A DNA stretch of 25,194 bases, from the IMG/VR virus record IMGVR_UViG_3300046543_000140, positions 1-25,194 of that record, one strand, 5' to 3'. Made by a program: the position numbers and the translations under genes. Of the stretch, positions 6,047 to 25,194 are shown one piece after another (within the stretch, counting starts at the first letter, position 1; the number at the start of each line of letters is the position of its first letter). The notes under the pieces were generated by a model. The model was not told where the DNA came from. It worked only from the letters and a program-made list of their open reading frames with translations, and did not search any database. Source of the DNA: a virus.

Positions 6047-6261
6047 GGGCTCGATGCTTCACCGTTGCCGCGCGCGGCCATGCCCATGCGGTGCAGCGTC
6101 TCGCCGGTGTCGCTCACCGTGTCGTGCTGCATGCACTGGCGCTGTATCTCGGCGATCAGCGGGGCGGTGACGCGGTAGGGGCCATCCGCCAACGCATTGA
6201 GCACTTGATCCCAAGCGGCAGCCTCAAGCACGACGGTGAGCCTGGATGTGCGATCGATCAT
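6043..6261 (-). CDS. Small protein of unknown function (72 aa)
   Basis: I chose the ATG at 6261 because it overlaps the upstream stop as ATGA; the ATG at 6267 would add two residues. The protein reads MIDRTSRLTVVLEAAAWDQV, followed by LNALADGPYRVTAPLIAEIQRQC and a polar tail. It looks alpha/beta with an amphipathic helix. I do not recognise a family. Small helical proteins with an 'AAWDxVLxALxxxPY' pattern recall assembly chaperones or regulators of tail genes, but this is only likeness. It ends in a GTGA overlap with the gp10-like gene, so it is likely coupled to it. Confidence 0.65.
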   Translation of the reverse strand: MIDRTSRLTVVLEAAAWDQVLNALADGPYRVTAPLIAEIQRQCMQHDTVSDTGETLHRMGMAARGNGEASSP

Positions 6262-6614
6262 TGCCATGCGTATCCGCTTATCGGGTGGTTGCTGTCGCTA
6301 GAGACAACCGAGACGCTGTTTCCGCTAGGGGCCAACCGATAGGCCTGCCCCGGCACGATGCAACTTACGTTGCCGCCCGGCGTGGTCGTTGCCGCCTCGC
6401 CATCCATCTCATCGATGCACAGGTTAGTGGTCGCGGTTGACGGGTTAAACAGCCATCCACCCTTAAGTCTGTGATAGTGTGCCACTGCGGTGACGGCGGT
6501 GCCCCCAGTCGTAACTGTCGCAACATCAAGGGGCGCCACAATAACTGCAGTCTGGGCCTGCGCGCTGCCCGCTATCGCGACGCTCGCGAGCGCTGCCGCC
6601 ATCATCCATCGCAT
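6258..6614 (-). CDS. Small secreted-type protein with Sec signal peptide (118 aa)
   Basis: The ATG at 6614 has GAGGGAG 6 nt upstream, overlapping the stop of the previous gene. Residues 1-20 form a clear signal peptide (MRWMMAAALASVAIAGSAQA) with an AxA cleavage site before QTAVIV. The mature part (about 98 residues) is beta-rich and contains GGWLFNPSTATTNLCIDEMD and IVPGQAYRLAPSGNSVSV. This pattern resembles small phage proteins with 'GGxxxNPxxA ... L.PG' that accompany fibres. Two cysteines (in LCIDE and VSCIV) could form a disulfide in the periplasm. It pairs with the neighbouring signal-peptide gene. Function unknown; candidates are a virion tip protein or a periplasmic superinfection-exclusion factor. 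Confidence 0.75.
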   Translation of the reverse strand: MRWMMAAALASVAIAGSAQAQTAVIVAPLDVATVTTGGTAVTAVAHYHRLKGGWLFNPSTATTNLCIDEMDGEAATTTPGGNVSCIVPGQAYRLAPSGNSVSVVSSDSNHPISGYAWQ

Positions 6615-7180: not shown

Positions 7181-7185
7181 CTCCT
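7181..7185 (-). promoter_or_regulatory. Ribosome binding site overlapping the tailspike stop (TAAGGAG)
   Basis: The tailspike stop TAA runs into AGGAG, 9 nt before the ATG at 7171. This supports the short form of the signal-peptide gene, beginning MKSLPL. Confidence 0.7.
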
Positions 7186-10100
7186 TAGAAGCACGGAACA
7201 TAACGAACCGTGCCGCTGGCATCCTTGATCGTCAGCCACTCCTGCACCGTCGCATGTGCCCCCGCAGGTGCGAGCGCAGTCAGCGACACCGACGTGGCGC
7301 CATTGGCTGTCCACGCGCCGCTCCCAGCTTGGATCGTGCCGCCGCTGGGCTGCAACGCAAGTGTCGTACGCGTCGTAGACCATGTCGGCGTCAGCACGCA
7401 GCCGGTGCCCGTGCTCGCTGACCGCGCCGTGGTGGCGAGCGTGGCTGGTGGCGAGGCCGTCGGGTAGATGGGCTGCGCAACCACGGTTACGCTCGTTACG
7501 ACGCCGCCCGACGCCAGCGTGTAGTAAACCCCACCATAAGCATCATCGAGAATGTCACCGCCCAACCCCGCATACCCTGAACCGCCCGCACTTACCGCAG
7601 GGGTGCCGGTGCCAACTGAACCCACCACATCAACCGACAACCCGGTTGCTGTCGGCGTCAGAAATGCGGTGCTTAGTTGCAGCACTCCCGTTGGGCTGAC
7701 AGCAAATCCCCCGGGCGTACGCAACGCCGCAGTGGTGAATGTCACATCGTTGAAATCGATACCGATATTAGCAAGGGCGGTGTGTGCCTGCGATAATTCA
7801 TACGCGAGCACTTTGCTATCCGTCCCCAGCGGGGCTAATGGCGAAAAACCACCGCCAAACCGCAACCCTGTGCGCCAGGGCGGTCCTGTGGCCTGCCCGA
7901 CCACAATAGCGTCATCAGCCATGGCCCCGCGCACTGCGTGGCCGCCACTGTTGTTGACCGCCAGACCCGCTCGACGAACCACCGATGAGCCGGTGTTCAT
8001 GGCGTTATCAAGCTCGATGCCAGTCATACCATAAAGGTTCAGCGCACCGTTCTTTGCCGTGCAGATAACGTCGATGCCCCAGTTGTTGCCGAATGCTGTT
8101 GACGGCGTTAACCCAGTTCCGCCTTGCGGCTGCGAAGCAATGCGATTGATCTGCGCTGCCAAAAAGCATCCCAGCCCGCCCCCCGCTTTATCATTAGTGG
8201 GGGCGATATCGCTGCAAGTCGCAGCTAACGCTTGCCAACCACCCGATACAGCCGCGACACCGCCCGCAACAAAGCTAACCCGCAAGGCATCAACGAGGCT
8301 ACTGGGTGCATTAACATTGGCCTGAGATAGATTGATCCACGCCGCGCCGGGGATTTCTGGCACAGTTGAATTACCAATAATTCCGTTTTGCACATAAAGG
8401 CCGAACAAGGTCGTATCGATCGTGCCGCCTGATAGCGTGTAGGTATTGGCCCGCCCGAAGTTTGTGCAGTTCGCTGCCAGCGGGCCGCCGGTAAAAGCAA
8501 TGCCAGGCGAGTTCTGCGCCTGAATAATGGCAGGGGTGGTGGTCTGATTGGCTCCCGCCGTCATCGTGATGATGTTGTTGGTTCCCGCCACGCCAACAAT
8601 GTGCTGCCCCCGGGTGCGGGCATTGCCGGTAACATCGAGGCCGAGGCCGGCGGCGGTCAGGTTGACAAGCCCAGCCACCGTGCCACCCGTGGCCAGCGGT
8701 AGGAACGGCCCGGTCGTCGTCGTCGGCAGCGTGACGGAGCCCGTCGCCACAAACGGCCCATTGACGGTTAGCGTTCCCGGCCCGACCGCACCACCGGATA
8801 GCGCCAGGTAGGGGCCACCAACGGGCGGCGTGCCGCTAACATCGGGAATGCACGGCAACCACGTGTTCGCCGCCGCGCCGGGGCCGCCCTGAATGAAACG
8901 GAACGCTGCACCAGCCGACAACACCGCTGTCGGCGGTCCGGCAACCGCCGCGCCCGTGGCCGCCGTCACCGTGAGCGTGCCAACTGGGTTTTGAAACCGC
9001 ACGTCGAGCTGGCTGCCGATGGTCTGGAATGAAGACGCGGCTGGCGCCGGCAGCACGAGGCTGCCGGTGGCGATGCTGGAGGAGTTGTTCACCAGCATGA
9101 ATGACGTGTTCTGCGGAACGGTGACGGTGCCGCCGTTGGCGAGCGTCGCGGTCTGGATTGCGCCATGCACGAGCGCACCACTGAGGCGGGTGTTGGCGTA
9201 ACCGTCAACCGACAACAGCGAGCCACCAGTGGTGAAGCCCAGCGTGCCGCTGTTGCTCACGACGACGGGCAGGCCGACACTGGTGTCAATCACGCCGCTG
9301 TCGAGCGCGGACGCATTGATGGCGCCGGCGGTGATGGTGAGGATATCCAGGCCCGTGTAGGGCGTTGGCACGCCAGCGACATTCTGGGTCAGCACGAAGT
9401 TGATCGTTGTGCCCGACGTGCCCGCGTTGTCTGCGGTCGCGATCCAGTTGCCGCCGAGTTTCGAAATATCCCGTCCGTCAGTGAACCCAATGCTGTCTGT
9501 GCCGAGTACCAGCGACAGGTTGAACCGGCTGCCGACGACCAACCCGTGCGGCGTGCGAGTGGTGAGAGTAACGATAGCCGTGGCAGGGTCATAGCTGCTG
9601 GGGGCTTGAACGGAGATGCCGATGACCTTGATGAAATCGAAGCCGCCGGGGCTGGCGTTGCCGGCACCGACATAGATGTTGCTCTCGCCGCGCCCGGCGC
9701 TGCGGTTGTATCCAACCTGAACGCCAAGCGGCGCGAAGCGCTCGGCGCTGTCATTCGAGAACGGCTGGTGCAGAGTGGTGCCGTTGGTGAACCCGGTCAC
9801 CACATCGAAGTTGTTGCCCTGCATCCCACCGGCGGACATATCGGCAGGGAAGTTCCCGCCGCTGTTGATCCTGGGGCCGTAGTAATTGCCGGTGCAAACC
9901 CCCTGGATGCCCCAGGTGCCACCAATCGCGGCCAGCATCGTGGGTGGTGATTGATAATCAGCGATGAAGTTGTCAGCGATATAGAGCCGATCCGCGCCAT
10001 GGGTGACGATACCGAAGCCATTCGGCACCAGCTGACCCCCGGTGAAGGTAATCGTCCCCAGCCCTGCCGGCGCATGAAAATTCAGGATAGTCGGGCCTGT

Positions 10101-12296
10101 GGACGCCTCGGCAATGTATCGACCTTCGATGCTGGCATGCGCCCCGGTCCCTGTAGTCGCTGACAAGGTAAAATAGGCATTCGTGAACAGATTATGCGGG
10201 ATTGCCGTGGTCAGGCTGACTGCACCAGTCGCATTGTTATACGTCCCGCTGACGACCTGCGTCAGCGTCGTGCCCGCCATGGTCGTGCTGATCAGGCACG
10301 GGTCGCGGAGGGTGTTGCCGGTAATGCTGACACGGTTCGCATCAGGCCCAACCGTAATTTCACCAACGCTGCCGTACGTGTTCAGCCCCACCGCCCGGTT
10401 CTTGTAGAAATAATTGTCGGCGCATTCGAGGCCGTCGCAACTACCGAAACCCGCCCCGCCTCGGTTGCCGGTGATGTAGTTGTTGAAGATACGGGTGCCC
10501 GTGTGCGGGATATTCCCCGTTCCAAAGTTAACAGTTCCGACGCCTGCGCCGAGGTTGTCATGGATATAATTGCCGGATATCTCACAATCGACGCAACGCC
10601 CGGAGTTCGCGTCCGAGAACAGGTATGGCCCCGACCCCAGGTTACGAGTGATCTCGCTGTTGCGGATGTAGCAAGCGACACCACCACCGTAGATGCATGG
10701 ACCGATGTCGCGGATTTGGTCGATAAAGCAATTATCGAAACCGCTGTTCCAGCACTTGGTGCTGACCCCGATCGTGCCGCCCGTGATCGAGAGGGTGGGA
10801 CCACCGTAGACGGTGCCGCCGCTGATGGTGATGCCGGCTAGATTAGGCGGCCCCACGTACTTAATCGTGGTTCCGGTAGTGCCCGCTACGCAGACATATT
10901 CACCATGCAAGCCAGAGAGAAACCCGGAGCCAGTTGCGGACACCGTGACAACATCGCCGGGGGACATGCCGTGTGGCGCATCGGTCGTCAACGTGACAGT
11001 GCCGGATGGAGCATCGTAGACGCCGCTAACGATGTTCTCCGTGGTGCCGGTCCGCGTCGTTCGATAGCGCAGCGTTACGTTCTTCGCTGCGGTAATAGGC
11101 GGCTCACCGGCTCCATCAGTCACGTCGAGCAGCTGGAAGATGCCGGTGGCAACAGCCGCCGCCGTGCCGCCGGTGATGTTGGACGAAATCGTCTGTCCAT
11201 AGACCAACTGGTGCGGTGCGGTCGTCGTCACGGTGATGACGCCCGTGGCCGGCACATAGGTACCGCTGACGATCGTCGCCTGCTGGTAGAACCAGTTGGT
11301 AATGCGACCGCCGGTGATCGAACCATCGGTGCCGACACCGCCGCCGGTAGCGGCATAAACGATCGTGTTTCCGGCAGTGCCGGCAAGCGTAATGAACAGT
11401 TTGCCTGTTGCAGCGTTAAAGCCACCAGTGCCGGTCAATGTTTCGGTGATGAACTCCTCACCCGGCACCATGCAGTGCGGAACATTGGTGGTCAGAGTGA
11501 CGATGCCGGTCGCCGCGACAGAGGTTCCGGTAAAGGTCAGCGGTGTGCCAGCCGCAGGGTCGTAAGGGAAATTGCGCCAACCACTGACCCCGACCGAACC
11601 GGCGTGAAACGCCGAATTGGTCAGCGAGATATCCGAGACTTCGCAATTCGTCGCGCCAGCCAGCCCAACAGCTTGGTTCTGGAAATTCGTGATCAGCCCA
11701 TTGCGATCACCGATAATCTTGACGTGGCTGCAAAAGCCACCCTGCACGGGAGGATTTCTTGCAGGACCGCCCCAAATTCTATCGTTGCTTATGCCGCCGC
11801 TAATGCTCGCCGGGTTTCCATTTGTCGCCGGATAGTCCAGATTAAGTTGGAAGTATTGCTGCGACGAGTTGCCATCCAACGTGCCGTACAGCTCGATCAG
11901 GACATGGTGGGCGAAGTTGCACAGCAGGAACATGTTCGCGTTGGTCTGCGGCGCCAGTTTCAGCGTCGCGCCCAGCTCGATGATGATGTGGCTATGCGAG
12001 GGGATGATGAGCGAGGTGCCGATGATGTATGGCAGCGGATTGGCGGGCACGATCAGCCGCGTCAACCCCGGAGCCGAGGCGCGGTCTGCCGGATCGGCAT
12101 CAGCCGCACCATCGATCGCCTGCTGGAAATACGGCGCAAGATCGGTCACGCCATCCGGCTGGCCGCCCGGTATCCAGTCGGTGACCCGAGTGCCGTGCCC
12201 GGCGTTGGCGATCGCGGCATTCAGCTCATCCGCAATCAGGATTTCGCCCTGCTTCCAGGGGTAGTGCGGGCGGTTGGGAGGAGAGATGCTGTCCAT
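7185..12296 (-). CDS. Giant tailspike / fibre with pectate-lyase-type beta-helix (1703 aa)
   Basis: The ATG at 12296 has AGGA 6 nt upstream. Residues about 1-45 (YPWKQGEILIADELNAAIAN) look like a virion-anchoring head. GTRVTDWIPGGQPDGVTDLA with FQQAIDG at about 35-63 is the start of the pectate-lyase-like superfamily, in which right-handed beta-helices bind or cleave capsular or O-antigen polysaccharide. Helix rungs are evident at about 530-650 (NSEITRNLGSG, NYIHDNLGAGV, NNYITGNRGGAG, NYFYKNRAVGL). Five copies of an 80-100 residue module (SGxYxxATGxVTLTTxxPHGL) lie at about 252-332, 343-422, 423-499, 682-758 and 896-994. Residues about 1000-1560 are Thr/Gly-rich fibre sequence. The C-terminus (LQPSGG, then APAGAHATVQEWLTIKDASG) is a frequent fibre end. 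It is much longer than the P22 spike (667). Catalytic residues cannot be named from the sequence alone. Confidence 0.85.
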   Translation of the reverse strand: MDSISPPNRPHYPWKQGEILIADELNAAIANAGHGTRVTDWIPGGQPDGVTDLAPYFQQAIDGAADADPADRASAPGLTRLIVPANPLPYIIGTSLIIPSHSHIIIELGATLKLAPQTNANMFLLCNFAHHVLIELYGTLDGNSSQQYFQLNLDYPATNGNPASISGGISNDRIWGGPARNPPVQGGFCSHVKIIGDRNGLITNFQNQAVGLAGATNCEVSDISLTNSAFHAGSVGVSGWRNFPYDPAAGTPLTFTGTSVAATGIVTLTTNVPHCMVPGEEFITETLTGTGGFNAATGKLFITLAGTAGNTIVYAATGGGVGTDGSITGGRITNWFYQQATIVSGTYVPATGVITVTTTAPHQLVYGQTISSNITGGTAAAVATGIFQLLDVTDGAGEPPITAAKNVTLRYRTTRTGTTENIVSGVYDAPSGTVTLTTDAPHGMSPGDVVTVSATGSGFLSGLHGEYVCVAGTTGTTIKYVGPPNLAGITISGGTVYGGPTLSITGGTIGVSTKCWNSGFDNCFIDQIRDIGPCIYGGGVACYIRNSEITRNLGSGPYLFSDANSGRCVDCEISGNYIHDNLGAGVGTVNFGTGNIPHTGTRIFNNYITGNRGGAGFGSCDGLECADNYFYKNRAVGLNTYGSVGEITVGPDANRVSITGNTLRDPCLISTTMAGTTLTQVVSGTYNNATGAVSLTTAIPHNLFTNAYFTLSATTGTGAHASIEGRYIAEASTGPTILNFHAPAGLGTITFTGGQLVPNGFGIVTHGADRLYIADNFIADYQSPPTMLAAIGGTWGIQGVCTGNYYGPRINSGGNFPADMSAGGMQGNNFDVVTGFTNGTTLHQPFSNDSAERFAPLGVQVGYNRSAGRGESNIYVGAGNASPGGFDFIKVIGISVQAPSSYDPATAIVTLTTRTPHGLVVGSRFNLSLVLGTDSIGFTDGRDISKLGGNWIATADNAGTSGTTINFVLTQNVAGVPTPYTGLDILTITAGAINASALDSGVIDTSVGLPVVVSNSGTLGFTTGGSLLSVDGYANTRLSGALVHGAIQTATLANGGTVTVPQNTSFMLVNNSSSIATGSLVLPAPAASSFQTIGSQLDVRFQNPVGTLTVTAATGAAVAGPPTAVLSAGAAFRFIQGGPGAAANTWLPCIPDVSGTPPVGGPYLALSGGAVGPGTLTVNGPFVATGSVTLPTTTTGPFLPLATGGTVAGLVNLTAAGLGLDVTGNARTRGQHIVGVAGTNNIITMTAGANQTTTPAIIQAQNSPGIAFTGGPLAANCTNFGRANTYTLSGGTIDTTLFGLYVQNGIIGNSTVPEIPGAAWINLSQANVNAPSSLVDALRVSFVAGGVAAVSGGWQALAATCSDIAPTNDKAGGGLGCFLAAQINRIASQPQGGTGLTPSTAFGNNWGIDVICTAKNGALNLYGMTGIELDNAMNTGSSVVRRAGLAVNNSGGHAVRGAMADDAIVVGQATGPPWRTGLRFGGGFSPLAPLGTDSKVLAYELSQAHTALANIGIDFNDVTFTTAALRTPGGFAVSPTGVLQLSTAFLTPTATGLSVDVVGSVGTGTPAVSAGGSGYAGLGGDILDDAYGGVYYTLASGGVVTSVTVVAQPIYPTASPPATLATTARSASTGTGCVLTPTWSTTRTTLALQPSGGTIQAGSGAWTANGATSVSLTALAPAGAHATVQEWLTIKDASGTVRYVPCF

Positions 12297-12302
12297 TGGT
12301 GA

Positions 12303-12306
12303 TCCT
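12303..12306 (-). promoter_or_regulatory. Ribosome binding site of the tailspike gene
   Basis: AGGA, sharing bases with the stop TAG of the gp4-like gene, stands 6 nt before the ATG at 12296. It favours this start over a GTG/TTG-type extension to 12338. Confidence 0.6.
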
Positions 12307-13819
12307 ATGCCAACACAGAAGTGCCGCCCACGGTCCACGCCCGGTCGAGCCCGCGCCCGGCCCAGCTGGACACGTCGCCGCCGCGCCCGCCGAGGATGAC
12401 CGGCAGGCTCAAAAGCGGGATCTGACTGTTAGCCAGGCGTATCGTTTGCAGCGCCGCGCGCGCCTGGCCGAGCAGGAACGGGCTCACCGGGGCGCCACTT
12501 GCCACCACCATGCGCACGGCCAGATTGTTGACCACCGCGTCGGCATATTCCGGCGGCAGGGACAACGCGTCGTCGATCGTCAGGAACACCGGCAGCGGCG
12601 CCTTGGTGAGAATGTGCAGCTCGTAGAGCCCGGCCGCCGGCACCGGGTAGAAGGTGATACGCGCGCTAGGAAAAGCGCTGTCGTAGAACAGTGCCGACGG
12701 GATCGAGCCGAGGTCTTTGATCGTGATCTGACCCCAGTCTTCTTTGCTCTCGATGATCGCCAGCGGAATGTCGACGGGGTTGTGCCCGCTGTTCGGCATC
12801 AGCCGGCACCAGCCGCCATGAATTTTATCCGGACGCAGGATGGGGAAATCGCCGCCGGGGCCAACCGAGTACCACTGGTTGCCGGTCGCCATTTTGGCGG
12901 TCTCTGCCTCGTTCCAAATCAACCAGCGTTTGCGCTGCCACTGCGCCAGCATCATCGTCAGCAGGCTGAGCGCGTCGGCCATGTCGGCCGAGGTGTCGCT
13001 AACGCGCTGCTGGTCGTTGACGCGCCCGGCCAGGCGCAGCGCGAGGAGCAGCACCTGGCGCACCGTGGACGGCACGCCGCCGGGCACCAACGCCGCCTGC
13101 TGCTGCTGGTTGATCGCCTGCAGTAGCTGCAGCGCGCGATCGGCGCGGCCCTGCAGCGTCGCCGGCACCTCTTGCCCCCAGAGGTCACGCAGGCGCACCG
13201 CCAGGTTGAGCGTGAGAGCGTTCCTCATCCCGTGCGTGAACGTGCCGGTGATCGGCGCGTTGATGTCGACCAGGTTCGGCAGCGCGTTCGGGTTGACGCG
13301 CACGTCACGCTCGCGCTGCCACTCGTCGACCATCTCAAGCAGCTGCAGGTGCGCCTCGGTGACGTCCGCAGAGGCGGGGTCGACACCCTGCGTGTCGGAT
13401 AGCCGCCCGGCGGCGCGGAGTGCCATGTAGACGATGCTGAGGGGCGTAGAGAGGTCGATCGCGGGGTCGACCGGCGTGACCTGCAGGTTCTGCGCCTGGA
13501 ACGCCGCCAGGGCGCCCTGGGCAATCTGCACGTCGATCGGGACCGGTGGCAGCGCGTAGATTTGCCGCAGGCGCACGGCCAGGCTGGTCAGCAGCACATG
13601 CTCGTATGGACCCCAGAACGACACGTCGGTGGTGAGGTCCGGAAACGTCGGCAGCACGATCGCATTGACGTGCACGCGCCGCTCGAGGTTGAGCTCGCTG
13701 ATCCACGCATTGAGGATTTTGAAACAGTCGTTGACGTCATCGGCGCGCGGGGTCTGCCCGATGCCGTTGACCCCGCTGTTGCGCAGCGACAGGAACAGAA
13801 TATCGTTAGCGATTGTCAT
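12305..13819 (-). CDS. Head-tail adaptor with three gp4-like units (504 aa)
   Basis: The P22 gp4 family (tail accessory factor, 166 aa, ring of twelve under the portal) has a pattern 'xxxAlrxxGxxx...daxxxLxxMxxxWxxxx'. That pattern occurs three times here. Unit 1, residues 1-115: IANDILFLSLRNSGVNGIG ... CFKILNAWISELNLE. Unit 2, about 124-242: STPLSIVYMALRAAGRLSD ... LQLLEMVDEWQRERDVRV. Unit 3, about 251-470: STVRQVLLLALRLAGRVND ... LSLLTMMLAQWQRKRW. Each unit then has an LAVRL/LAVRM motif (80-84, 206-210, 433-437) and an AxxAL helix. Unit 3 carries an extra beta-rich insertion at about 305-420. Start is ATG in an ATGA overlap. It probably closes the portal and stabilises packaged DNA. The repeat reading is direct from sequence; the ring stoichiometry is unknown. 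Confidence 0.85.
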   Translation of the reverse strand: MTIANDILFLSLRNSGVNGIGQTPRADDVNDCFKILNAWISELNLERRVHVNAIVLPTFPDLTTDVSFWGPYEHVLLTSLAVRLRQIYALPPVPIDVQIAQGALAAFQAQNLQVTPVDPAIDLSTPLSIVYMALRAAGRLSDTQGVDPASADVTEAHLQLLEMVDEWQRERDVRVNPNALPNLVDINAPITGTFTHGMRNALTLNLAVRLRDLWGQEVPATLQGRADRALQLLQAINQQQQAALVPGGVPSTVRQVLLLALRLAGRVNDQQRVSDTSADMADALSLLTMMLAQWQRKRWLIWNEAETAKMATGNQWYSVGPGGDFPILRPDKIHGGWCRLMPNSGHNPVDIPLAIIESKEDWGQITIKDLGSIPSALFYDSAFPSARITFYPVPAAGLYELHILTKAPLPVFLTIDDALSLPPEYADAVVNNLAVRMVVASGAPVSPFLLGQARAALQTIRLANSQIPLLSLPVILGGRGGDVSSWAGRGLDRAWTVGGTSVLA

Positions 13820-16106: not shown

Positions 16107-17309
16107 TTAGTTCGCCACCAACCGGCAGGCGAGCTGCGGACGCAGCGCGGCAGCGCCCCAGAGCACGTCGATGCGGATGGGGAACGTGTCATCCGAGATC
16201 GAGTATTGGCGGACGGCGCGCATGCTGATGCCGTCCTTCACGACCCGCGATGCCATGTCGACGCCGCCGGGCATGACGAGGTCGGCAGTGGCGAACGTGA
16301 ACGCGTCGGGGTGAAACGCGAGGCTGAGCCCGGATGCAGTCGACACGGTCCCAGACCAGGTGATCGGCGCCGAGCCGTTTGCCACCGTGACGACGTTCTG
16401 CTGCGGACTGCCGGCGAGACCGTTGATGCCCGGGCTGATGGTCATGGTGCCCGCGCCGCCGGCATAGGCTCCCGCCACCACGAATTGCTGCAGCACGCCG
16501 CTGCTCACCTTGGTCTCCGGGTGGCAGCGGAACACGCCGCCGATGGTGAAGACATCGCCGGCGTTCGCTGCCCCCGCCCCGGCGGCGACCACCAGGCTGG
16601 TGCCGGTGTTCTGGTTGGCGACGATCGCTGTCGTGTAGGCGGCATTCCCCGCGCCGCGCGTGGTGGTCGTCAGGTGGGTGTTCTCCGCCCACTCGAAACC
16701 ACCCGCGAGCCCCATGACGCCGTCGGTGTATTGGCGCGCAATCTGCGTCGATTGCTGGAACAGCCCCTTGAGAGCGTCCACCAGATCGACGTTGTCCTGG
16801 GTGTTGATGCGGAGCAGCCACTGCTTCGATTGCGGCGTCAGATTGTCCAACAACAACTTGCGGCTCTGCAAAACGGTCTTGAACACCTGCGGCGAGCCTG
16901 CCGTGCCGACCAGGTTGTAGACCGTCGGCCACATCTGCAGGACGAAGTCGGCCTCGATCTGCGCCGCCAGCACCGCGATCGCCGGCTCGATGTAGCGGGT
17001 GCTGAAATCATCGATCGACAGCGTCAGCTCGTTGCTGCTGAAGCTGAAGTCAGTGTGATACTGGTTGCTGATCGGCAGGCTAACGAACGTCTCGACCGTA
17101 TTCTGCAGGCTCAGCGCCGGGGTCTTGGAGACGGTGTATTGCACGGGGACGCGGATGCGCAGCGTGCTGCCGATCTTGGCTCCGCTGTTAGCGAAGCTGT
17201 CGTCGTATTGGCGGTTCACCGCGCCGATGATATTGCATTTTTGATGCAAGATCGCCAGCGCCTTGGCGGTGATCATGTTGATGGTGAGAAGGGTGTTGCT
17301 TGCGGCCAC
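16107..17309 (-). CDS. Major capsid (coat) protein, P22 gp5 type (400 aa)
   Basis: I place the start at GTG 17309 because GGAGG stands 5 nt upstream and the result, MAASNTLLTINMITAKALAI, matches the usual N-terminus of P22-type coat proteins; an ATG at 17321 and a TTG at 17354 are weaker. Then NRQYDDSFANSGAKIGSTLR (about 32-51) and RVPVQYTV follow, a very typical block of this family. LSIDDFSTRYIEPA and QIEADFV (about 97-122) also fit, and the chain ends with a beta-rich domain and AALRPQLACRLVAN. Length is close to P22 gp5 (430). It forms the HK97-fold shell, co-assembling with the scaffold encoded just before. It has its own 232-nt leader with repeats and a hairpin. Confidence 0.92.
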   Translation of the reverse strand: MAASNTLLTINMITAKALAILHQKCNIIGAVNRQYDDSFANSGAKIGSTLRIRVPVQYTVSKTPALSLQNTVETFVSLPISNQYHTDFSFSSNELTLSIDDFSTRYIEPAIAVLAAQIEADFVLQMWPTVYNLVGTAGSPQVFKTVLQSRKLLLDNLTPQSKQWLLRINTQDNVDLVDALKGLFQQSTQIARQYTDGVMGLAGGFEWAENTHLTTTTRGAGNAAYTTAIVANQNTGTSLVVAAGAGAANAGDVFTIGGVFRCHPETKVSSGVLQQFVVAGAYAGGAGTMTISPGINGLAGSPQQNVVTVANGSAPITWSGTVSTASGLSLAFHPDAFTFATADLVMPGGVDMASRVVKDGISMRAVRQYSISDDTFPIRIDVLWGAAALRPQLACRLVAN

Positions 17310-17314
17310 ATTGG

Positions 17315-17319
17315 CCTCC
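17315..17319 (-). promoter_or_regulatory. Ribosome binding site GGAGG of the coat gene
   Basis: A perfect GGAGG lies 5 nt before the GTG at 17309 and overlaps the upstream ATG at 17321-17319. It is the only good site in the leader and decides the coat start. Confidence 0.75.
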
Positions 17320-17338
17320 ATGACAACGGAGTTGCGGG

Positions 17339-17362
17339 AGGCGCTTCCTTTCAAGAGCGCCT
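17339..17362 (-). promoter_or_regulatory. Hairpin in the coat gene leader
   Basis: A perfect 7-bp inverted repeat (AGGCGCT at 17339-17345, AGCGCCT at 17356-17362) encloses a 10-nt loop, which in the RNA reads CUUGAAAGGA. It lies about 30 nt before the coat GTG. No U-run follows, so it is unlikely to be a terminator; it may protect the 5' end of a processed coat mRNA. Confidence 0.45.
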
Positions 17363-17541: not shown

Positions 17542-18240
17542 TCAGCGCTTGGCAGGCTTGAGGTAGTGATCGACGAGGTCTTGAGCCGACGCCGTGTATT
17601 CGTTGAACGTCGGGCTTGCACGCCCGCTCACCGGGCGAACCGGCGCAGGTGCGCGGGTGACTGGCGCGGGGGCGGCCGCCGCGCCGTTGTTCAGTTTGGC
17701 GGCATAGGCCCCGAGGGCAATGGCGCGGCCGCGCTCGCTGTAGATGCCGGCGATGCGCTGCACCTCCTCGGGATCGTCGGCGAGCGCCGCAACCACGCGC
17801 GGGGCGTTCGGCAGCTCCACCAACAACGCCGCGAGGGGCGCGTCGGCGCCCATCGCCATCAGGTCCGCGCACTTTTTCGACCAGTCCGGAAACTCAGCGG
17901 CGCCCTCTTGGTGGAACCGCTCGGCGCGCAAGCGCATCCCCTCCTCGGCGCGGATTTGCGCGCGCATCTGCTGCTCGCGCGCCTCGGGCGTATCCGCGAC
18001 CGGCGTCGCCGGCTGACGCTGCGCACGATAAAACTCGAGCTCGGAACGCTGCTCCGCCTGGATGCGCTCGGCGGCGGACAGCTTGGCGGTGAGGACCGCG
18101 AAGCGCTTGTCGGCGGGGTGCTGCCGCTGCTCCTCGGTCTGCTCCCCCTCGGCCTGCTCGACGGGCTCGGGGGCTGGGGCTGGGGCTGGAGCCGGCGCGG
18201 GGGCCGGTTCCGGTGCAAGGGCGGTGGTGGTCTCGCTCAT
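17542..18240 (-). CDS. Scaffolding protein (232 aa)
   Basis: The protein sits between portal and coat, where P22-like phages encode gp8. Residues about 8-27 are an Ala-Pro repeat, 28-45 are acidic and Gln-rich, and residues about 46-110 are charged helix likely to be a coiled coil (RFAVLTAKLSAAERIQAEQR, then ELEFYRAQ). The middle reads EFPDWSKKCADLMAMGADAP and LVELPNAPRVVAALADDPE, a pattern seen in phage scaffold or capsid-assembly proteins. The C-terminus (FNEYTASAQDLVDHYLKPAKR) is a short basic helix, as expected for the coat-binding helix-turn-helix of scaffolds. It would form the procapsid core and leave on maturation. Shorter than P22 gp8 (303). Start ATG in ATGA overlap. Confidence 0.8.
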   Translation of the reverse strand: MSETTTALAPEPAPAPAPAPAPAPEPVEQAEGEQTEEQRQHPADKRFAVLTAKLSAAERIQAEQRSELEFYRAQRQPATPVADTPEAREQQMRAQIRAEEGMRLRAERFHQEGAAEFPDWSKKCADLMAMGADAPLAALLVELPNAPRVVAALADDPEEVQRIAGIYSERGRAIALGAYAAKLNNGAAAAPAPVTRAPAPVRPVSGRASPTFNEYTASAQDLVDHYLKPAKR

Positions 18241-18410
18241 CGTGGTGCGTCCGGTGGCAGGTTGTGGGTGATTTGCGCGGGCTCGTCGAGGTCGGGTCGC
18301 GCCAGGCTGCCGCGCAGCAGCACGAGCTCGGCCTCCAGCGTCAGCACGCGCATCTGCAAAAGCCCGATGTCGGTTTCCGCCCGGTGCAGCCGCTCGATAA
18401 TGTCGCTCAT
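18237..18410 (-). CDS. Small coiled-coil protein between portal and scaffold (57 aa)
   Basis: This short frame overlaps its neighbours by ATGA at both ends (start in the portal stop, stop in the scaffold start), strong evidence that it is translated. It encodes MSDIIERLHRAETDIGLLQM followed by RVLTLEAELVLLRG. Residues 4-34 have hydrophobic residues at heptad spacing (I, L, I, L, V, L, L), hence a likely dimeric or trimeric coiled coil. The tail, ARPDLDEPAQITHNLPPDAPR, is polar. It may be an assembly cofactor of portal or scaffold. No family recognised. Confidence 0.75.
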   Translation of the reverse strand: MSDIIERLHRAETDIGLLQMRVLTLEAELVLLRGSLARPDLDEPAQITHNLPPDAPR

Positions 18411-20608
18411 GCCATTGCCGGGGCTGGGGCGGGCGCTGGGGCCGGTGCCGGCGCTGGCGGGGCGGCTGCCGCGCCGTCGCCGTCGGCGGGCTCTGGCGGC
18501 GCCATGCGGGCCGCCAGGTCGCCCTGGATGTCGGCGTGGCGCTGCAGCATCGGGTGCAAGTCGGTTTGCAGCATGTCCTCGACCATTTTGCGGACGATCA
18601 GCTGCAGGGAATGCGGATCGATCTGCCCGACCGCCTTGAGCCGGTCGGTCTCCGCCTGGTAGTCGTCGATGGCGCGATCGCCGGCCTTGTCCTGCAGCTG
18701 CAGCGTCATCTTGGCGACCTGCTGCTTGAGGGCCGCCACCTCGCTGTCGGCCTGGCCAAGCAGCTGCTGCGCGTGCTTTTGCGTCTCGCTCAGCACGCCC
18801 TGCAGCTGCTGCACCTGCGGGTCGACGCCGGATTGATACTGCGGCGGCAGGCCGCGCTTCATCCGATCGGCCAGCTCGTCCGCGCCCGGGAAATCGGAGT
18901 TTTGCGCCCAGAAGTCGCCGACGATCTGAAACGCCGCCGGGTTCTGGCTCATGATCTGGGAGAAGGCGTTCGCCGCCTCCTGGCGCTGCGTGCCGTAGGC
19001 CGGGCCTACGTCCGCCTCGACGTCATATTCCCCCACCGACGGATTGAAGATGATGGCGGGGTTGGGTTGGTCAGGGTTGGCGCGCATCGCCTGCGCCTGC
19101 GCGGGATTGAGGGTTGCGCCGTTCGCGGGGTCAATGTGCTGGTGCGCGTCCTGCGCGGCGGGGTCGACCTGCACCGTGCTCTCGGAATTGTCGTAGCCCA
19201 TGATCTTGACCACGCGCGGGGTGTCGTAAATCTTCGGGATCAGATCGAGGAGGATGCGCCCGACCTGGCGGATGCCTTTCGCCTGGTTGTCAATGTAGTG
19301 ATAGGTGGCGGTGTCACCCTGCCGCTGGCGCTGCTGGATCGCGGTGCCGGATCGCTCATTGGAGGGCATGCCGAGCTCGGCCTGGTATTGCCCGGTCACC
19401 GCCATGAGGTCCTGGCGCGCGATCGTCATCCCCTGCACGTAGGCCTGCGCCATCTGCGGCGGGTCGACGCGCGTGGGCGGCGGGATCGCGTTGCCCTGCT
19501 CGTCGAGACCGTTGTACACCAGCACGCTGTGGTTCTTGACGTTCGCGGTCTTCCACTGCTCCTCGCGGCCCTCGATCGCGTCGGCGCGCGCCACGTAGGG
19601 CGTCTTCGTCTGCAACGCCACCTGCTCGACGGCAGCCGACGCCCAGTAATTGTAGATGCGCTGCGCGTCGATCTGGGACCGGGTGTGACCTTTCCGGTCC
19701 ATCTTTTTATCAATAACGGTCTCTTCGCCGATGAAAGGGGCGATCGGGATGTATTTGCCGAGCCAGTCCTCGCGATCGATGATCTTGTCGCCCGACAATT
19801 TGAACCATTCAATCTTGTGGCTGGTCACATCGCGCGTCTTGGCGATCATGGGTTCAATTTTGTCACGCAGCTCGTCGGGGATTTCATCGTCACGCGTCAG
19901 CGTGCCGTCCTGCAGCCGGTGCAATTTGTGGGTCGTGGTCGTGCGCCGCCAATATTCGGCGATGCGCACATGGTCCTTCTCGTTCCAGCCGTCGCTGTGG
20001 TCGAGCGTGTTCGGCGCCGGGCTGGCATCCTTGCCATTCTCGTCCTCGTAGCGGTCGCGCGGGATATCCTCGAAAACGAAGGCGAAATTGGCATCGGATT
20101 TGTCGTATTCCTGGCAGTCGGGGTCGATGTAGACCGTGCGCGGGTCGGCGATCCGGCGGATGAACAAATCGAGGTTGTGGCTGGTCTCGTCGACGTATCC
20201 GGTGTCAACGCGCACGTAGCCGATGCCGGTTTCAATCTGGTGGTAGGTGGCGGTGCTATAGGCGTCGGTGGCGCGGGATTGATATTCGATGCGGCGGATG
20301 ACGCCCGACATCACCTGGGCAGCATCGTAGCTGGAGCGGCCCGAGGTTGGCGTGATCTTGATCTGCGCCTTGTTCTGCCGCGCGTCGTTGATGATCTGCA
20401 GGTTATGCTGCCGAACATGGTTCTGGGTCAGGCACGGGCGGCCGGTGCGATCGGCGCGCACGTCGGCGTCCCACTGCCACATATTCTGGCTGTCGCCGTT
20501 GGCGAACCGTTGATCGAACCGCGCGCGATCGCGCCACTCGCTTTCCCAGGTGACACAGCGCTCGAAACGCTCTTTCGCCTCGCGCAGGATGTCGTCGTCT
20601 TTTGCCAT
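18407..20608 (-). CDS. Portal protein, P22 gp1-like (733 aa)
   Basis: I place the start at ATG 20608 (MAKDDDILREAKERFERC), which shares one base with the upstream stop (TGATG); a longer frame to 20821 is out of phase with sense and overlaps the previous gene. P22 gp1 features include RFANGDSQNMWQW, RPCLTQNHVRQHNLQIINDA near residue 65, IGYVRVDTGYVD, a YIDPDCQEYDKSDA segment and GTAIQQRQRQGD, typical of the portal core. Residues about 640-700 (QLQGVLSETQKHAQQLL ... LQDKAGD) form the helical barrel, and the end is an Ala-Pro repeat. Length matches P22 gp1 (725). Twelve copies form the DNA entry/exit ring, docking terminase and later the gp4-like adaptor. Confidence 0.92.
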   Translation of the reverse strand: MAKDDDILREAKERFERCVTWESEWRDRARFDQRFANGDSQNMWQWDADVRADRTGRPCLTQNHVRQHNLQIINDARQNKAQIKITPTSGRSSYDAAQVMSGVIRRIEYQSRATDAYSTATYHQIETGIGYVRVDTGYVDETSHNLDLFIRRIADPRTVYIDPDCQEYDKSDANFAFVFEDIPRDRYEDENGKDASPAPNTLDHSDGWNEKDHVRIAEYWRRTTTTHKLHRLQDGTLTRDDEIPDELRDKIEPMIAKTRDVTSHKIEWFKLSGDKIIDREDWLGKYIPIAPFIGEETVIDKKMDRKGHTRSQIDAQRIYNYWASAAVEQVALQTKTPYVARADAIEGREEQWKTANVKNHSVLVYNGLDEQGNAIPPPTRVDPPQMAQAYVQGMTIARQDLMAVTGQYQAELGMPSNERSGTAIQQRQRQGDTATYHYIDNQAKGIRQVGRILLDLIPKIYDTPRVVKIMGYDNSESTVQVDPAAQDAHQHIDPANGATLNPAQAQAMRANPDQPNPAIIFNPSVGEYDVEADVGPAYGTQRQEAANAFSQIMSQNPAAFQIVGDFWAQNSDFPGADELADRMKRGLPPQYQSGVDPQVQQLQGVLSETQKHAQQLLGQADSEVAALKQQVAKMTLQLQDKAGDRAIDDYQAETDRLKAVGQIDPHSLQLIVRKMVEDMLQTDLHPMLQRHADIQGDLAARMAPPEPADGDGAAAAPPAPAPAPAPAPAPAMA

Positions 20609-20904
20609 CAGCGGGTCCGCATCAGCACGATGTGCCCGGGGTCGTCGCCGGGTATCCAGGCGTGCACGACAATGCCCGCCGGCAGGCTGCGCCGGGCGCC
20701 GCCGCCGGCGGGGTCGCCCATCACCCAGCGCACGATGTGGCGCCGGAATTGACGCTCGGGCTCGGGCAGGTCGACCAGCGTGCGCCAGTCGATCCGCAAG
20801 CGCTGCATCAGCGCCAGCCAACGCATCCTGATGCTCTCGGGCGGGGGCACGAGCTCACGCTCGTAATCCTGCGGCCGCAGGGATCGTCGGGTGTATTCGG
20901 GCAT
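20608..20904 (-). CDS. Hypothetical protein before the portal gene (98 aa)
   Basis: The ATG at 20904 follows the lipoprotein stop by 25 nt and gives MPEYTRRSLRPQDYERELVP; a longer frame to 21054 would overlap the lipoprotein gene and has an atypical composition. The protein is Arg-rich with a helical middle (IRMRWLALMQRLRIDWRTL) and a beta-like end (GIVVHAWIPGDDPGHIVLMR). It overlaps the portal start by one base. No family recognised; its place between terminase and portal would suit a small packaging or assembly helper, but nothing in the sequence shows this. Confidence 0.65.
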   Translation of the reverse strand: MPEYTRRSLRPQDYERELVPPPESIRMRWLALMQRLRIDWRTLVDLPEPERQFRRHIVRWVMGDPAGGGARRSLPAGIVVHAWIPGDDPGHIVLMRTR

Positions 20905-21566: not shown

Positions 21567-21774
21567 GTTCGTCTCCTGTTAAACGCGTATCTACCAAACC
21601 GACCAACAGCCGCGCGGAACTCAATTCTCGCCAAGCAATGGAATTGGCTCTGCACAAACGGTTGTAGCGCTGCTCTAGATCGACAATTACATCTGCCGCC
21701 TCCGCACACAGGCAAGCCGCGTCCGACCGTTGCGCCTTTTTCCCGCGCAACCGGGCGACAAGTTTCAAGTTCAC
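21514..21774 (-). CDS. Small helical protein after large terminase (86 aa)
   Basis: Starts with GTG in a GTGA overlap with the terminase stop. Residues about 5-45 (LVARLRGKK ... CLCAEAADVIVDLEQRYNRL) follow the 'LxxRLR...cxEAADxIxxLExxxxxL' pattern of many small phage proteins, an amphipathic helix able to coil. The last 15 residues repeat a Glu-Pro-Leu/His theme (EHEPLIEPHEPLEQHERG) in the part that overlaps the Ig-like gene. Codon use is less GC-rich than the neighbours. Role unknown. A small-terminase role cannot be excluded but there is no DNA-binding motif to support it. Confidence 0.6.
   Translation of the reverse strand: MNLKLVARLRGKKAQRSDAACLCAEAADVIVDLEQRYNRLCRANSIAWRELSSARLLVGLVDTRLTGDEHEPLIEPHEPLEQHERG
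21573..21577 (-). promoter_or_regulatory. Ribosome binding site AGGAG of the Ig-like gene
   Basis: AGGAG with a 6-nt spacer to ATG 21566 lies inside the upstream gene and shows that this start is used despite the 53-nt overlap. Confidence 0.7.
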
Positions 21775-23114
21775 ACGCTCATCCAGCTGGTGACCGGGCG
21801 ACCGTTAGGCGTGGTGACGTGGTCCCATTGCCCGGTTTGGATCGCATCCTGCGGTCGGAGGTCGATCGTCTGCGGGACGCCGGCCTCGCGCACGCCGAGG
21901 GCGAGGTAGCGCATGCTGTCGGCCCCGTGGCTGGCGTGGTCGTGCACCGGGGTCGCGCGCCAGGCCTGCGCCGCCTCGTTCCACTCGCGCCGGTAATGGC
22001 GCAGCGCGTGGATGCCCTTGGCGCAGCGTTGGGCGTCGAAATAACAGCGCGGGAGCACCATGCGCACCGCGTTGATGCCGTCGGCGATGCTGTGGCTGCG
22101 GAGCGTGCGGGTGGGGCGGATGCCGAGGCTGTGGAACGTCTCCACGCGACTGCGCCCGCTGCCGAGCTCCACGACCTTGGCGTCATGCGGCAGCAAATGC
22201 TTGGCGTAGACATAGGGGCGCTGCTGCAGCAGCTGCGCGTAGTGATCGAGGCCGGCGCCGCTGTCCTCGAGGTAGTCAATCACCCGCCACTCGCCGGATT
22301 TGGTGATCTGCACGAACCAAATCGCAGTGCTGTCGTGCACACCTAAATCCCACGCGGTGGTGACCAGCAGATTGGGCTCGTGCGGCACCACGGTGATGCG
22401 ATTTTGACGCTCGGCCTCGTCCATCAACTTGCCGTAGTAGCTGCCACTGTTCGGGGAGGCGAAGCTGCACTCCATCTCCTGCGCGAACTCTTCCGGCGAC
22501 ATCTCGAGGCGCAGGCGGTCGATCGCGGCCGGGGTCAGGGCTTGGGTCTGCGTGTAATCGAGCAGATAGGTGGAATAACCGGGGGTGATGCGCGCGTGGT
22601 CGTAGGCGGCCTGCAGGATGCCTCTGCCTTTCGGCGTGCCAGAACGGACCAAGGTGCCCATTCTATCGGCCAGCATCGGCTCGATGACCAGGGGAATGAG
22701 GGATGGCGGCGTATCGTCGGCCTCGTCGACGATCGCCTCGTCGGCAGCACCCCCGCGCCAGCTGTCAGGATTGTCGGCGCCGCCGCACTGGTAGGTGCCG
22801 CCGTTCGGCAATTTGATTGCCATATCCGAGCGGCGTGGAACGGCGCCGGGGATACTCTCGGCGGCTTTCGAGAGGGCATCCCAAAGCCCGGTGCGCTGCC
22901 ACATGACCCCAAATGGGAGAATGTGCACGACCCGGGGTAGCGCTTTCTTCTCGGTCAGGGCCCGCTTGAGGCCGCGCCACATCAGGGCGGTTGATTTGCC
23001 AGCGCGTCGGTGCACCACCGCGACAATCCGGGGCGCCGGGTCGTCGATGAGCTGGGTCTGCCACGGGCGCGGGCTGAACGGCAGCTGCAGGCGGCGTTTT
23101 GGGGCGGTGGTCAC
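21771..23114 (-). CDS. Terminase large subunit (447 aa)
   Basis: This is the ATP-driven packaging motor and nuclease. Residues 34-42 (VHRRAGKST) are a Walker A motif of the terminase type. AIVDEAD at 127-133 is Walker B with the catalytic Glu131. SGTPKG at 158-163 is the coupling motif. In the C-terminal RNase-H-like nuclease the acidic residues are Asp256 (AWDLG), probably Asp311 (LPHDAK) and Asp399 (HASHGADSMRY). The chain is complete though a little shorter than P22 gp2 (499). Start is GTG in a GTGA overlap with the ART-like gene. The small subunit that would recognise the packaging site is not evident in the window. Confidence 0.95.
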   Translation of the reverse strand: MTTAPKRRLQLPFSPRPWQTQLIDDPAPRIVAVVHRRAGKSTALMWRGLKRALTEKKALPRVVHILPFGVMWQRTGLWDALSKAAESIPGAVPRRSDMAIKLPNGGTYQCGGADNPDSWRGGAADEAIVDEADDTPPSLIPLVIEPMLADRMGTLVRSGTPKGRGILQAAYDHARITPGYSTYLLDYTQTQALTPAAIDRLRLEMSPEEFAQEMECSFASPNSGSYYGKLMDEAERQNRITVVPHEPNLLVTTAWDLGVHDSTAIWFVQITKSGEWRVIDYLEDSGAGLDHYAQLLQQRPYVYAKHLLPHDAKVVELGSGRSRVETFHSLGIRPTRTLRSHSIADGINAVRMVLPRCYFDAQRCAKGIHALRHYRREWNEAAQAWRATPVHDHASHGADSMRYLALGVREAGVPQTIDLRPQDAIQTGQWDHVTTPNGRPVTSWMSV

Positions 23115-24988
23115 TGTTGATCCTGGCCGGCGCCGGCCGCCGCAGCCGCCCCGGCGGCGCCGACGGCGCCCAGCGGGGTCAGCAGCGGATGACGGCCGCG
23201 AATGAAGTCATCGAGCGCCTGCTCTTTGGTTATTCCGCGCTTAACAGCGGTGTTGTGGAGACGATTTTCGACTATTCCGAGGAAAGATGTCGGCAGGCTG
23301 CGCAGTCCGGTGACGCGGCCGCCGCCGACCCACAGCGCCGCTTGGAATTGCGCGGGGGTCAAGCCCATCTTACCGGCGATATGCTGCGCCCACGCCTCAA
23401 GCGCCCCATAATGGTTGGGGTCGGGCATATCCTGCCACATATGCGGGTGCTGCAGCGCCTGTTCCATCGTTATGCGACCGGATTGAACCTCTTTTTTCCA
23501 GTTCCGGCTTTCACCTTTGGCGATGCCGAGGGCGGGATAGTTGACATCCGCGACGGTCTTGCCGTTGAGGAACGCGGGGTCTTGAGAGAGCATCCCGATC
23601 AGCCGGATAAAATGTTTGTCCCCGGTGATTGGTTGCTGATTGCCGCCAAGATTGGCGACGAAAGACGACCGTTTCGCCTGCGTTTCCGGGTTGAGCGTTC
23701 CGGTGTCGCCCTCGTTGAGCCCGCGATAGCCGCTGATGTGCGCCTGCTGCAGCTTGTGGCCGTAGGGCGGGATCAGGTCATTGGACGTCCGGACAGGCGT
23801 CCCGGCCCGTTCCATTACGTGATAATAGGAGGCGGCACGCACATTCTGTCCAACCTCAGAACCGGCGGAGGTGGCACCAACAATCGGTATGTAACGGTTA
23901 AATTGTGCGTTGCCCTCTTCTGGCCCGAGACGGTCGATAAAGGCTTGCCGTAACGGTTCCGCATTATACCAATGCGCGCCGCCGACCTCGAGGCCCTTCT
24001 CGGCGACGAAACGAAGTTTCGCCTCGAGGTCCGGGTTGCTCATCGCATTGATAATGTGCTCGGGCAGGCCCTTGCGCTTGCCACCGTAGGGGTCGATGCG
24101 CGCGAGGTCGGTCTGCGGCACATCTGGCACCTGCCAGGTGTTGGACAGGTCAAGAACGTGGTCAGGGTGCGCAGGCGAGCCCGCCTGCAGCTGGGCCGGT
24201 GTCACCGGCCCCGTATTGCGGCTGGGGACGATGTCCCCGTAGGCGGGCATGCCGAGTGCCGCGAGGTCCGCGTCGGCGTTGGAGCCGAGGCGGCCCGCCA
24301 GGCTCTCCATGACCGGCGCGCCGGCCGGGCGCGGCGCGAGGGGCACCGCGTCGGGGAAAGGCACATGCCCGTCCAGCGAGTGACTGACGGGGCCGGCCGC
24401 AGCCGGGGTGGGGGTTGCCGGGGGCTCTGCCGACGGGGTGTGAATTACGGCGTCAGCGGCAGAGATTGGCTTGTCTACGCCAACATTGTGCCCAGCCCGC
24501 AAATAATCATCGATGCCCCACCCGTCTCGCCCAGAATAGCTGTTCGCGTCGGCAATATTCAGCAGCTGCCCGTTGGGTAAATCGAAATCAACTTTCAGGT
24601 CTGATTTGGGCACTTTCAATTCAACAACCGGGCCGCCAGCCGCATAACCGGAAGCGGTCGCCTTGTTCGGCGATAGAAACGCGGGGCCTTTCACCTGCCC
24701 GTCGGCCTTGATCTGTGCCGCCCCCTCAGGGGAGGTGCCGTGGTAAAGAGTGGTCAGGTCGTCGGAGGGTGCCTGCGCAGGAAGCGCTGCAGCGGGCGCT
24801 GAAGACCCTTCCTGCGCGACAGGTTCCTCTGCGTCGGGGAAAGGCAAATGACCGTCCAGGGACGCGCTGCGCGGATTGCGCGCGGCGGCACGCGTGCCGG
24901 GCTCGGGTGGGCGGTCGGCGCCGGGGGCGCGCACCCGCTTGCTGGGCAGCGCCACCGGTTCCCCGGGGAGCCGGCCTATGTCGGGCAC
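23111..24988 (-). CDS. Polyvalent-type protein with ADP-ribosyltransferase-like domain (625 aa)
   Basis: From GTG 24988 the chain has a Pro/Arg-rich head (1-75), an ART-like domain at about 79-183 (TLYHGTSPEGAAQIKADG, then AFLSPNKATASGYAAGGPVV and GWGIDDYLRAGHNVG), a Pro/Ala linker, and a long domain at about 297-600 with YHVMERAGTP, GDKHFIRLIGML and YGALEAWAQHIAGKMGL; the end is Ala/Gly-rich (604-621). The motif SLDGHLPFPDA occurs at 43-53 and, with one change, at 204-214. 'YHGTs...FLsx...A..YA' fits the ART fold; a catalytic glutamate is not obvious. The long domain resembles pieces of large phage 'polyvalent' proteins thought to be ejected with DNA. The start is uncertain: no ribosome binding site, and an in-frame ATG at 25027 is separated from it by a TGA. 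Ends in a GTGA overlap with terminase. Confidence 0.7.
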   Translation of the reverse strand: MPDIGRLPGEPVALPSKRVRAPGADRPPEPGTRAAARNPRSASLDGHLPFPDAEEPVAQEGSSAPAAALPAQAPSDDLTTLYHGTSPEGAAQIKADGQVKGPAFLSPNKATASGYAAGGPVVELKVPKSDLKVDFDLPNGQLLNIADANSYSGRDGWGIDDYLRAGHNVGVDKPISAADAVIHTPSAEPPATPTPAAAGPVSHSLDGHVPFPDAVPLAPRPAGAPVMESLAGRLGSNADADLAALGMPAYGDIVPSRNTGPVTPAQLQAGSPAHPDHVLDLSNTWQVPDVPQTDLARIDPYGGKRKGLPEHIINAMSNPDLEAKLRFVAEKGLEVGGAHWYNAEPLRQAFIDRLGPEEGNAQFNRYIPIVGATSAGSEVGQNVRAASYYHVMERAGTPVRTSNDLIPPYGHKLQQAHISGYRGLNEGDTGTLNPETQAKRSSFVANLGGNQQPITGDKHFIRLIGMLSQDPAFLNGKTVADVNYPALGIAKGESRNWKKEVQSGRITMEQALQHPHMWQDMPDPNHYGALEAWAQHIAGKMGLTPAQFQAALWVGGGRVTGLRSLPTSFLGIVENRLHNTAVKRGITKEQALDDFIRGRHPLLTPLGAVGAAGAAAAAGAGQDQQ

Positions 24989-25069: not shown

Positions 25070-25093
25070 GTTTGGCCCCCACAAATGGCCGTC

Positions 25094-25180
25094 AGATTTT
25101 GACTAACAGTCGGATTGGGTGGGGAGTGGGTGGGGGGTGAGATTTCGACTAACAGTCGGATTGGGTGGGGGGTGGGGGGA
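25094..25180. repeat. Tandem direct repeat, two copies, 46-bp period
   Basis: Copies begin at 25094 and 25140. Both contain GACTAACAGTCGGATTGGGT preceded by AGATTT(T/C) and followed by a G-rich tail (GGGG, AGTGGGTGGGG or GGTGGGGGG). GACTAACAGTC is itself a short inverted repeat (GACT/AGTC, 3-nt loop). The minus strand of the tails is C/A-only. They stand upstream of the first gene in the window and may continue beyond the right edge. Confidence 0.8.
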
Positions 25181-25194
25181 GGGTATACGTCCGA

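Follow-up and report, generated by a model that had tools for sequence, protein, structure and literature searches.

Polyvalent proteins of phages with portal and terminase genes combine several unrelated enzymatic domains on one chain, and an ADP-ribosyltransferase (ART) can be one of these domains (Iyer et al. 2017, PMC5512222); the word glycosylase is absent from the main text of that study. ARTs located near terminase and portal genes were argued to be packaged (PMC9503650; PMC5512222). The ART Alt of phage T4, which belongs to the R-S-E clade, is packaged into the head and injected (PMC5512222). DNA glycosylases also occur in phage-host conflict, namely in bacterial defences of the Brig1 type, as these are described in PMC11078745.

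We have analyzed a 25,194-bp stretch of viral DNA, positions 1 to 25,194 of IMG/VR record IMGVR_UViG_3300046543_000140, hereafter called the window. Pfam and PHROGs scans identified genes for a portal (1.3e-163) and a coat protein (6.1e-25), which mark the contig as a P22-type podovirus, and a P22-type DNA-ejection protein is encoded as well. A 1717-aa ORF at positions 7185-12338 (minus strand) gave no Pfam or PHROG match above chance. Upstream of the large terminase gene lies an ORF encoding a fusion protein with a predicted ART fold and a C-terminal domain predicted to adopt the fold of HhH-GPD DNA glycosylases. With the polyvalent proteins it shares the presence of unrelated domains on one chain, the portal-terminase phage, the ART as one domain and relatives carrying transglycosylase and GNAT domains; it differs from them by the glycosylase fold, and no metallopeptidase domain was found in it. 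The proposed working model likens the protein to T4 Alt as a head-packaged and injected ART. T4 Alt is not known to contain a DNA-glycosylase domain. The Brig1-type enzymes are bacterial, whereas the glycosylase fold described here is borne by a phage; the two are likened by description. The features of the locus are compiled in Table 1.

Table 1. Features of the fusion gene and of the neighbouring head genes in the window.
Feature	Position	Strand	Remarks
Fusion-protein ORF	23111..24988	minus	625 aa in the window, 5' end truncated; intact relative in L004, 751 aa
361-bp deletion junction relative to L004	24988..24989		N-terminal leader lost, frame shifted
First SLDGHxPFPD motif	24833..24862	minus	exact pattern match
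ART-fold domain (predicted)	24434..24763	minus	window ORF, residues 76-185; 751-aa protein, residues 202-311
Second SLDGHxPFPD motif	24350..24379	minus	exact pattern match
C-terminal domain, DUF7178 relative with predicted HhH-GPD DNA-glycosylase fold	23147..24214	minus	residues 385-740 of the 751-aa protein
Putative catalytic segment	23612..23674	minus	K439...D457-x-H459 of the window ORF; K565, D583 and H585 of the 751-aa protein
Large terminase	21771..23114	minus	Pfam Terminase_6N, 5.8e-6; GTGA overlap with the fusion ORF
P22-type portal	18407..20821	minus	Pfam/PHROGs scans
Scaffold protein	17542..18240	minus	
P22-type coat protein	16107..17354	minus	Pfam/PHROGs scans

The coordinates of the ORF given in the original prediction were confirmed; its strand had been missing and was established here. 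The predicted coupling to the terminase ORF by a GTGA sequence was also found, the overlap being 4 nt, and the ORF contains the YHGTS sequence, the two exact motif copies and the long C-terminal region described before. The window copy of the gene is incomplete. A second contig, L004, is 99.96% identical to the window over 7.9 kb and runs on to both sides of the junction with 361 additional bases. The corresponding deletion in the window is exact and lacks microhomology at its junction, which lies 206 bases short of the contig end; it is either a real deletion or an assembly artefact. The ORF of L004 encodes 751 aa with the N-terminus MPDANALDP, and the GTG "start" of the window corresponds to an internal valine of this intact protein. 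Because 361 bp are missing in the window as compared to the almost identical L004, this start is an artefact. The full N-terminus, whose absence from the window had been missed in the original prediction, is also present in two further phages, L005 and L006. The window ORF had no match at E ≤ 1 in Pfam and PHROGs scans, so that relatives had to be used for domain assignment.

For the C-terminal domain, 206 candidate IMG/VR stretches were reduced to 80 loci, from which 47 sequences were aligned. A genome scan for relatives yielded only two cellular ones, both of them distant. DUF7178 (PF23802) matched 41 of the 47 aligned members at E ≤ 0.1, and its C-terminal domain is the one found here; relatives such as those of L027 (47.2 bits) and L041 (35 bits) scored above the family cut-off, and the window domain alone stayed below it (12.3 versus 27 bits). 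Pfam gives no function for DUF7178, and no paper on it was found in the literature collection searched. An AlphaFold2 model built on the 47-sequence alignment reached a pLDDT of 90.5 and a pTM of 0.89. Upon comparison with PDB structures by VIA-align, the OGG2 8-oxoguanine glycosylases came out on top (3knt, Z 10.8 over 181 residues at 3.5 Å; 3n0u, Z 10.7; 3fhf, Z 10.5), followed by OGG1, AGOG, MagIII, MutY and EndoIII. Matches 1 to 47, which include all those above Z 4, were exclusively HhH-type enzymes; the first unrelated structure had a Z of 2.7. Foldseek against the PDB likewise placed OGG2 first, at a weak E of 0.14 (probability 0.89).

The residues K565, D583 and H585 form a K-x17-D-x-H pattern that is invariant in 47 of 47 phage proteins, in which most other positions vary, and the K-to-D spacing of 18 is the same in OGG2 sequences and EndoIII-like proteins. 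Apart from predicted fold and spacing, the domain is unlike OGG2: an insertion of about 50 residues follows the Asp, NPK stands in place of the GIGxK of the HhH hairpin motif, and significant sequence similarity was not found. Profile-profile comparison by hhalign with the glycosylases of two genomes was not significant (probability 0.5%), its best local match aligning the K-x17-D-x-H segment; the domain profile found no more than a chance match among PDB sequences, and PF00730 did not match at E ≤ 10. Since the Foldseek value is weak and the profile-profile comparison not significant, the relationship to HhH enzymes rests on the model together with the motif. On these two grounds the assignment of an HhH-GPD DNA-glycosylase fold and site, which is new for DUF7178, is well supported; glycosylase activity would follow from the fold as an inference. 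The region had been described previously as long and of the type found in polyvalent proteins, which holds, and the glycosylase fold had been missed.

The middle domain was modelled with AlphaFold2 from 12 sequences (pLDDT 85.6). The best 50 PDB structures found by VIA all belonged to the ART superfamily, with the tRNA 2'-phosphotransferase Tpt1 on top (Z 8.2 over 79 residues) and Rhs toxins and PARPs next; Foldseek against the PDB gave a weak match (E 0.07). The model thus supports an ART fold and upholds the predicted ART-like domain at this level. Membership in the ART-PolyVal family could not be maintained, as the PF18760 profile matched the window domain with an E of 0.11 and 13.7 bits, the cut-off being 31.2. 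The L006 homologue matched it at 0.0025; these matches are weak and in the correct register. The closest relatives of the domain are phage proteins (L128, L129/L117, L130 and L131), and the named weak Pfam matches among the ART relatives were ART-PolyVal or DRAT, the latter in L131 (4e-4). A tblastn search in phages and plasmids gave a single chance-level match (E 0.8).

With ART-PolyVal and Tox-ART-HYD2 the domain shares the ART fold and the strand-1 His, which is located in the NAD site and belongs to an H11-G12-T13 sequence invariant in the 12 relatives. It differs from them in strand 2 (AFLSP), where Phe, Tyr or Trp occur at the position of the Tyr invariant in the polyvalent clade; hence their His-Tyr-Asp active site is not retained. 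For the third catalytic acid, in strand 5, an Asp occurs nearby in the alignment, with no single fixed column. Lacking the clade Tyr and a clearly conserved third acid, the domain may have lost its activity or have a different ligand. In the sister phage L006, the same ART (64% identical to that of the window) is encoded by a stand-alone gene of 191 aa between portal and scaffold. A 673-aa phage ORF of L123 (positions 4587-6605) combines a YHGT ART-type domain with a PBECR5 nuclease. An HhH domain considered in the giant polyvalent protein of L130 was dropped (hhalign probability 0.6%), and a search for DUF7178 in the records of eight ART-relative phages, run without a positive control, found none.

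At its N-terminus the intact protein carries a leader of about 100 residues with the pattern NPVGTExLxxQS...LTxxQAxxIxxGSxxLF. This leader recurs in L005 and L006 as well as in relatives further removed, and its conservation stops at one subclade. In phage L021 it is present on both an ART-PolyVal protein and an HhH protein (E 1.6e-26 and 3.4e-19). Six-frame ORFs totalling approximately 1 million residues contained the NPVGT motif in 15 contexts, namely 14 HhH proteins and the L021 ART protein. Such a distribution would be expected of a targeting signal; common descent of two adjacent genes through partial duplication would look the same. In L021 and L027, ART-PolyVal genes lie a short distance upstream of the C-domain gene, and in L028 a 1453-aa ORF with several ART-PolyVal copies precedes it. 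Other relatives carry an SLT transglycosylase (8.9e-24) or a GNAT domain on one chain with the C-domain. Lytic transglycosylases fused to a DUF7178/HhH-fold domain were observed in L041 (2200-4872) and L043 (34-2676). BFVD matches of the C-domain at ranks 6-11 (E 7e-5 to 3e-3) included ART-PolyVal, RelA/SpoT, helicase and LPD proteins.

The position directly before the terminase gene, as originally described, is correct for the window; it is not the typical place of the family, being confined to the window lineage, and most relatives carry the gene between portal and scaffold or coat. The window ends 206 bases upstream of the fusion ORF, so that the lack of a small terminase in this slot, noted before, may be due to the contig end. 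In L005 and L006 the corresponding gene is preceded by a gene of 129-137 aa (phrog_11043, function not annotated), whose homologues in Sulfitobacter phages adjoin an annotated terminase; the 137-aa gene of L005 is a candidate for the small terminase. In L005 it is accompanied by a NusG-like antiterminator gene (4118-5220 for both). Direct repeats with a common core near CTGTTAGT were observed in three phages between the gene at the small-terminase position and the fusion gene or its counterpart (window 25091-25182, plus strand; L005 5399-5466; L006 2704-2823); they may constitute a packaging or regulatory site.

The linker of the intact protein is rich in Pro and Ala, contains the two SLDGHxPFPDA motifs and has the ART-fold domain inserted into it. 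Two exact SLDGHxPFPD copies in the window compare with none expected in 100 shuffles. The motif is restricted to a small lineage comprising the window and L004, L005 and, as a variant, L006. Both motifs and the linker occur in L005 and L006 without an ART in that protein, so the motifs predate the ART or are independent of it. The proposal that they serve as a packaging or protease-processing tag was not borne out: besides this narrow distribution and the occurrence without ART, no peptidase was found. A role as general virion tag was rejected, the exact motif being present in only two IMG/VR contigs. A different motif, IG[HD]NxPP, precedes the HhH-fold domain in the linkers of L012-L021, L023, L048, L069, L075, L076 and L086. 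It occurred in 15 of the 60 ORFs of the family as compared to 2 of 2348 other ORFs of the same loci, sequences that are related, so that a p-value would not be independent; no paper on IGHNxPP was found in the literature collection searched. Both motifs occupy a similar place in the linker, and their resemblance is only suggestive.

Taken together, the protein is probably a polyvalent-type phage effector that would be carried in the phage head and leave it together with the DNA. One ORF contains at least two unrelated domains (ART and HhH-GPD folds, from which the activities are deduced), the gene belongs to a portal-terminase phage and is located near head genes, and its domains are shared with other polyvalent proteins. 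The polyvalent reading proposed originally is supported because the C-domain recurs in phage polyvalent proteins and because relatives carry SLT or GNAT domains. Injection is consistent with the location in the head gene block and with a leader common to two different effectors. A role as accessory of head morphogenesis or packaging, with the HhH domain merely binding DNA at the portal or terminase and the ART fold being a degenerate binding module, appears unlikely. HhH is a common DNA-binding fold, the third acid of the ART is not clearly conserved, and wherever neighbours could be identified the family genes lie near terminase, portal, scaffold or coat; but a packaging part would not be expected to keep the enzyme-type Lys, Asp and His in 47 otherwise variable sequences, nor to gain and lose ART, SLT and GNAT cargoes among relatives.

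The protein might also act late inside the cell, as a toxin or superinfection-exclusion factor that does not enter the virion, its gene position reflecting late expression alone. ART-fold domains are indeed common in toxins, and packaging of the protein is a prediction; the leader common to ART and HhH proteins, the SLT fusions and the published location of ARTs of this kind close to packaging genes (PMC9503650) nevertheless make this quite improbable. We consider it least probable, with only a slight chance, that the protein is a late base-hypermodification enzyme. Phage HhH domains can be base-modifying transferases, such as PUGT of PaMx11, and PUGT (8z2n) is among the structural matches of the C-domain with Z 4.9. 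The OGG2 glycosylases score much higher (Z 10.8), the C-domain is fused to or located beside injected-type domains, and the proteins scanned in this incomplete contig included none recognisable as a further base-modification enzyme.

For the favoured polyvalent effector, the leader would guide its loading into the procapsid; once ejected with the phage DNA, the protein would act on the cell at the start of infection. The ART domain may then use NAD+ to modify a host macromolecule, and the glycosylase-fold domain may remove bases from DNA or scan it, thereby repairing incoming phage DNA or damaging host DNA. More tentatively, DUF7178 might represent a large and so far overlooked group of DNA glycosylases that virions bring into the cell with the phage DNA, often fused to an ART or encoded next to one, with the leader shared in this podovirus group as head-packaging signal for varied cargoes. 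A phage family without function, DUF7178, thus gains a testable enzyme class and two named putative catalytic residues (K565 and D583), and the candidate packaging leader offers a direct test of effector loading by podoviruses. If the proposal is true, injected activities would come to include DNA base excision, mirroring the bacterial anti-phage glycosylases.
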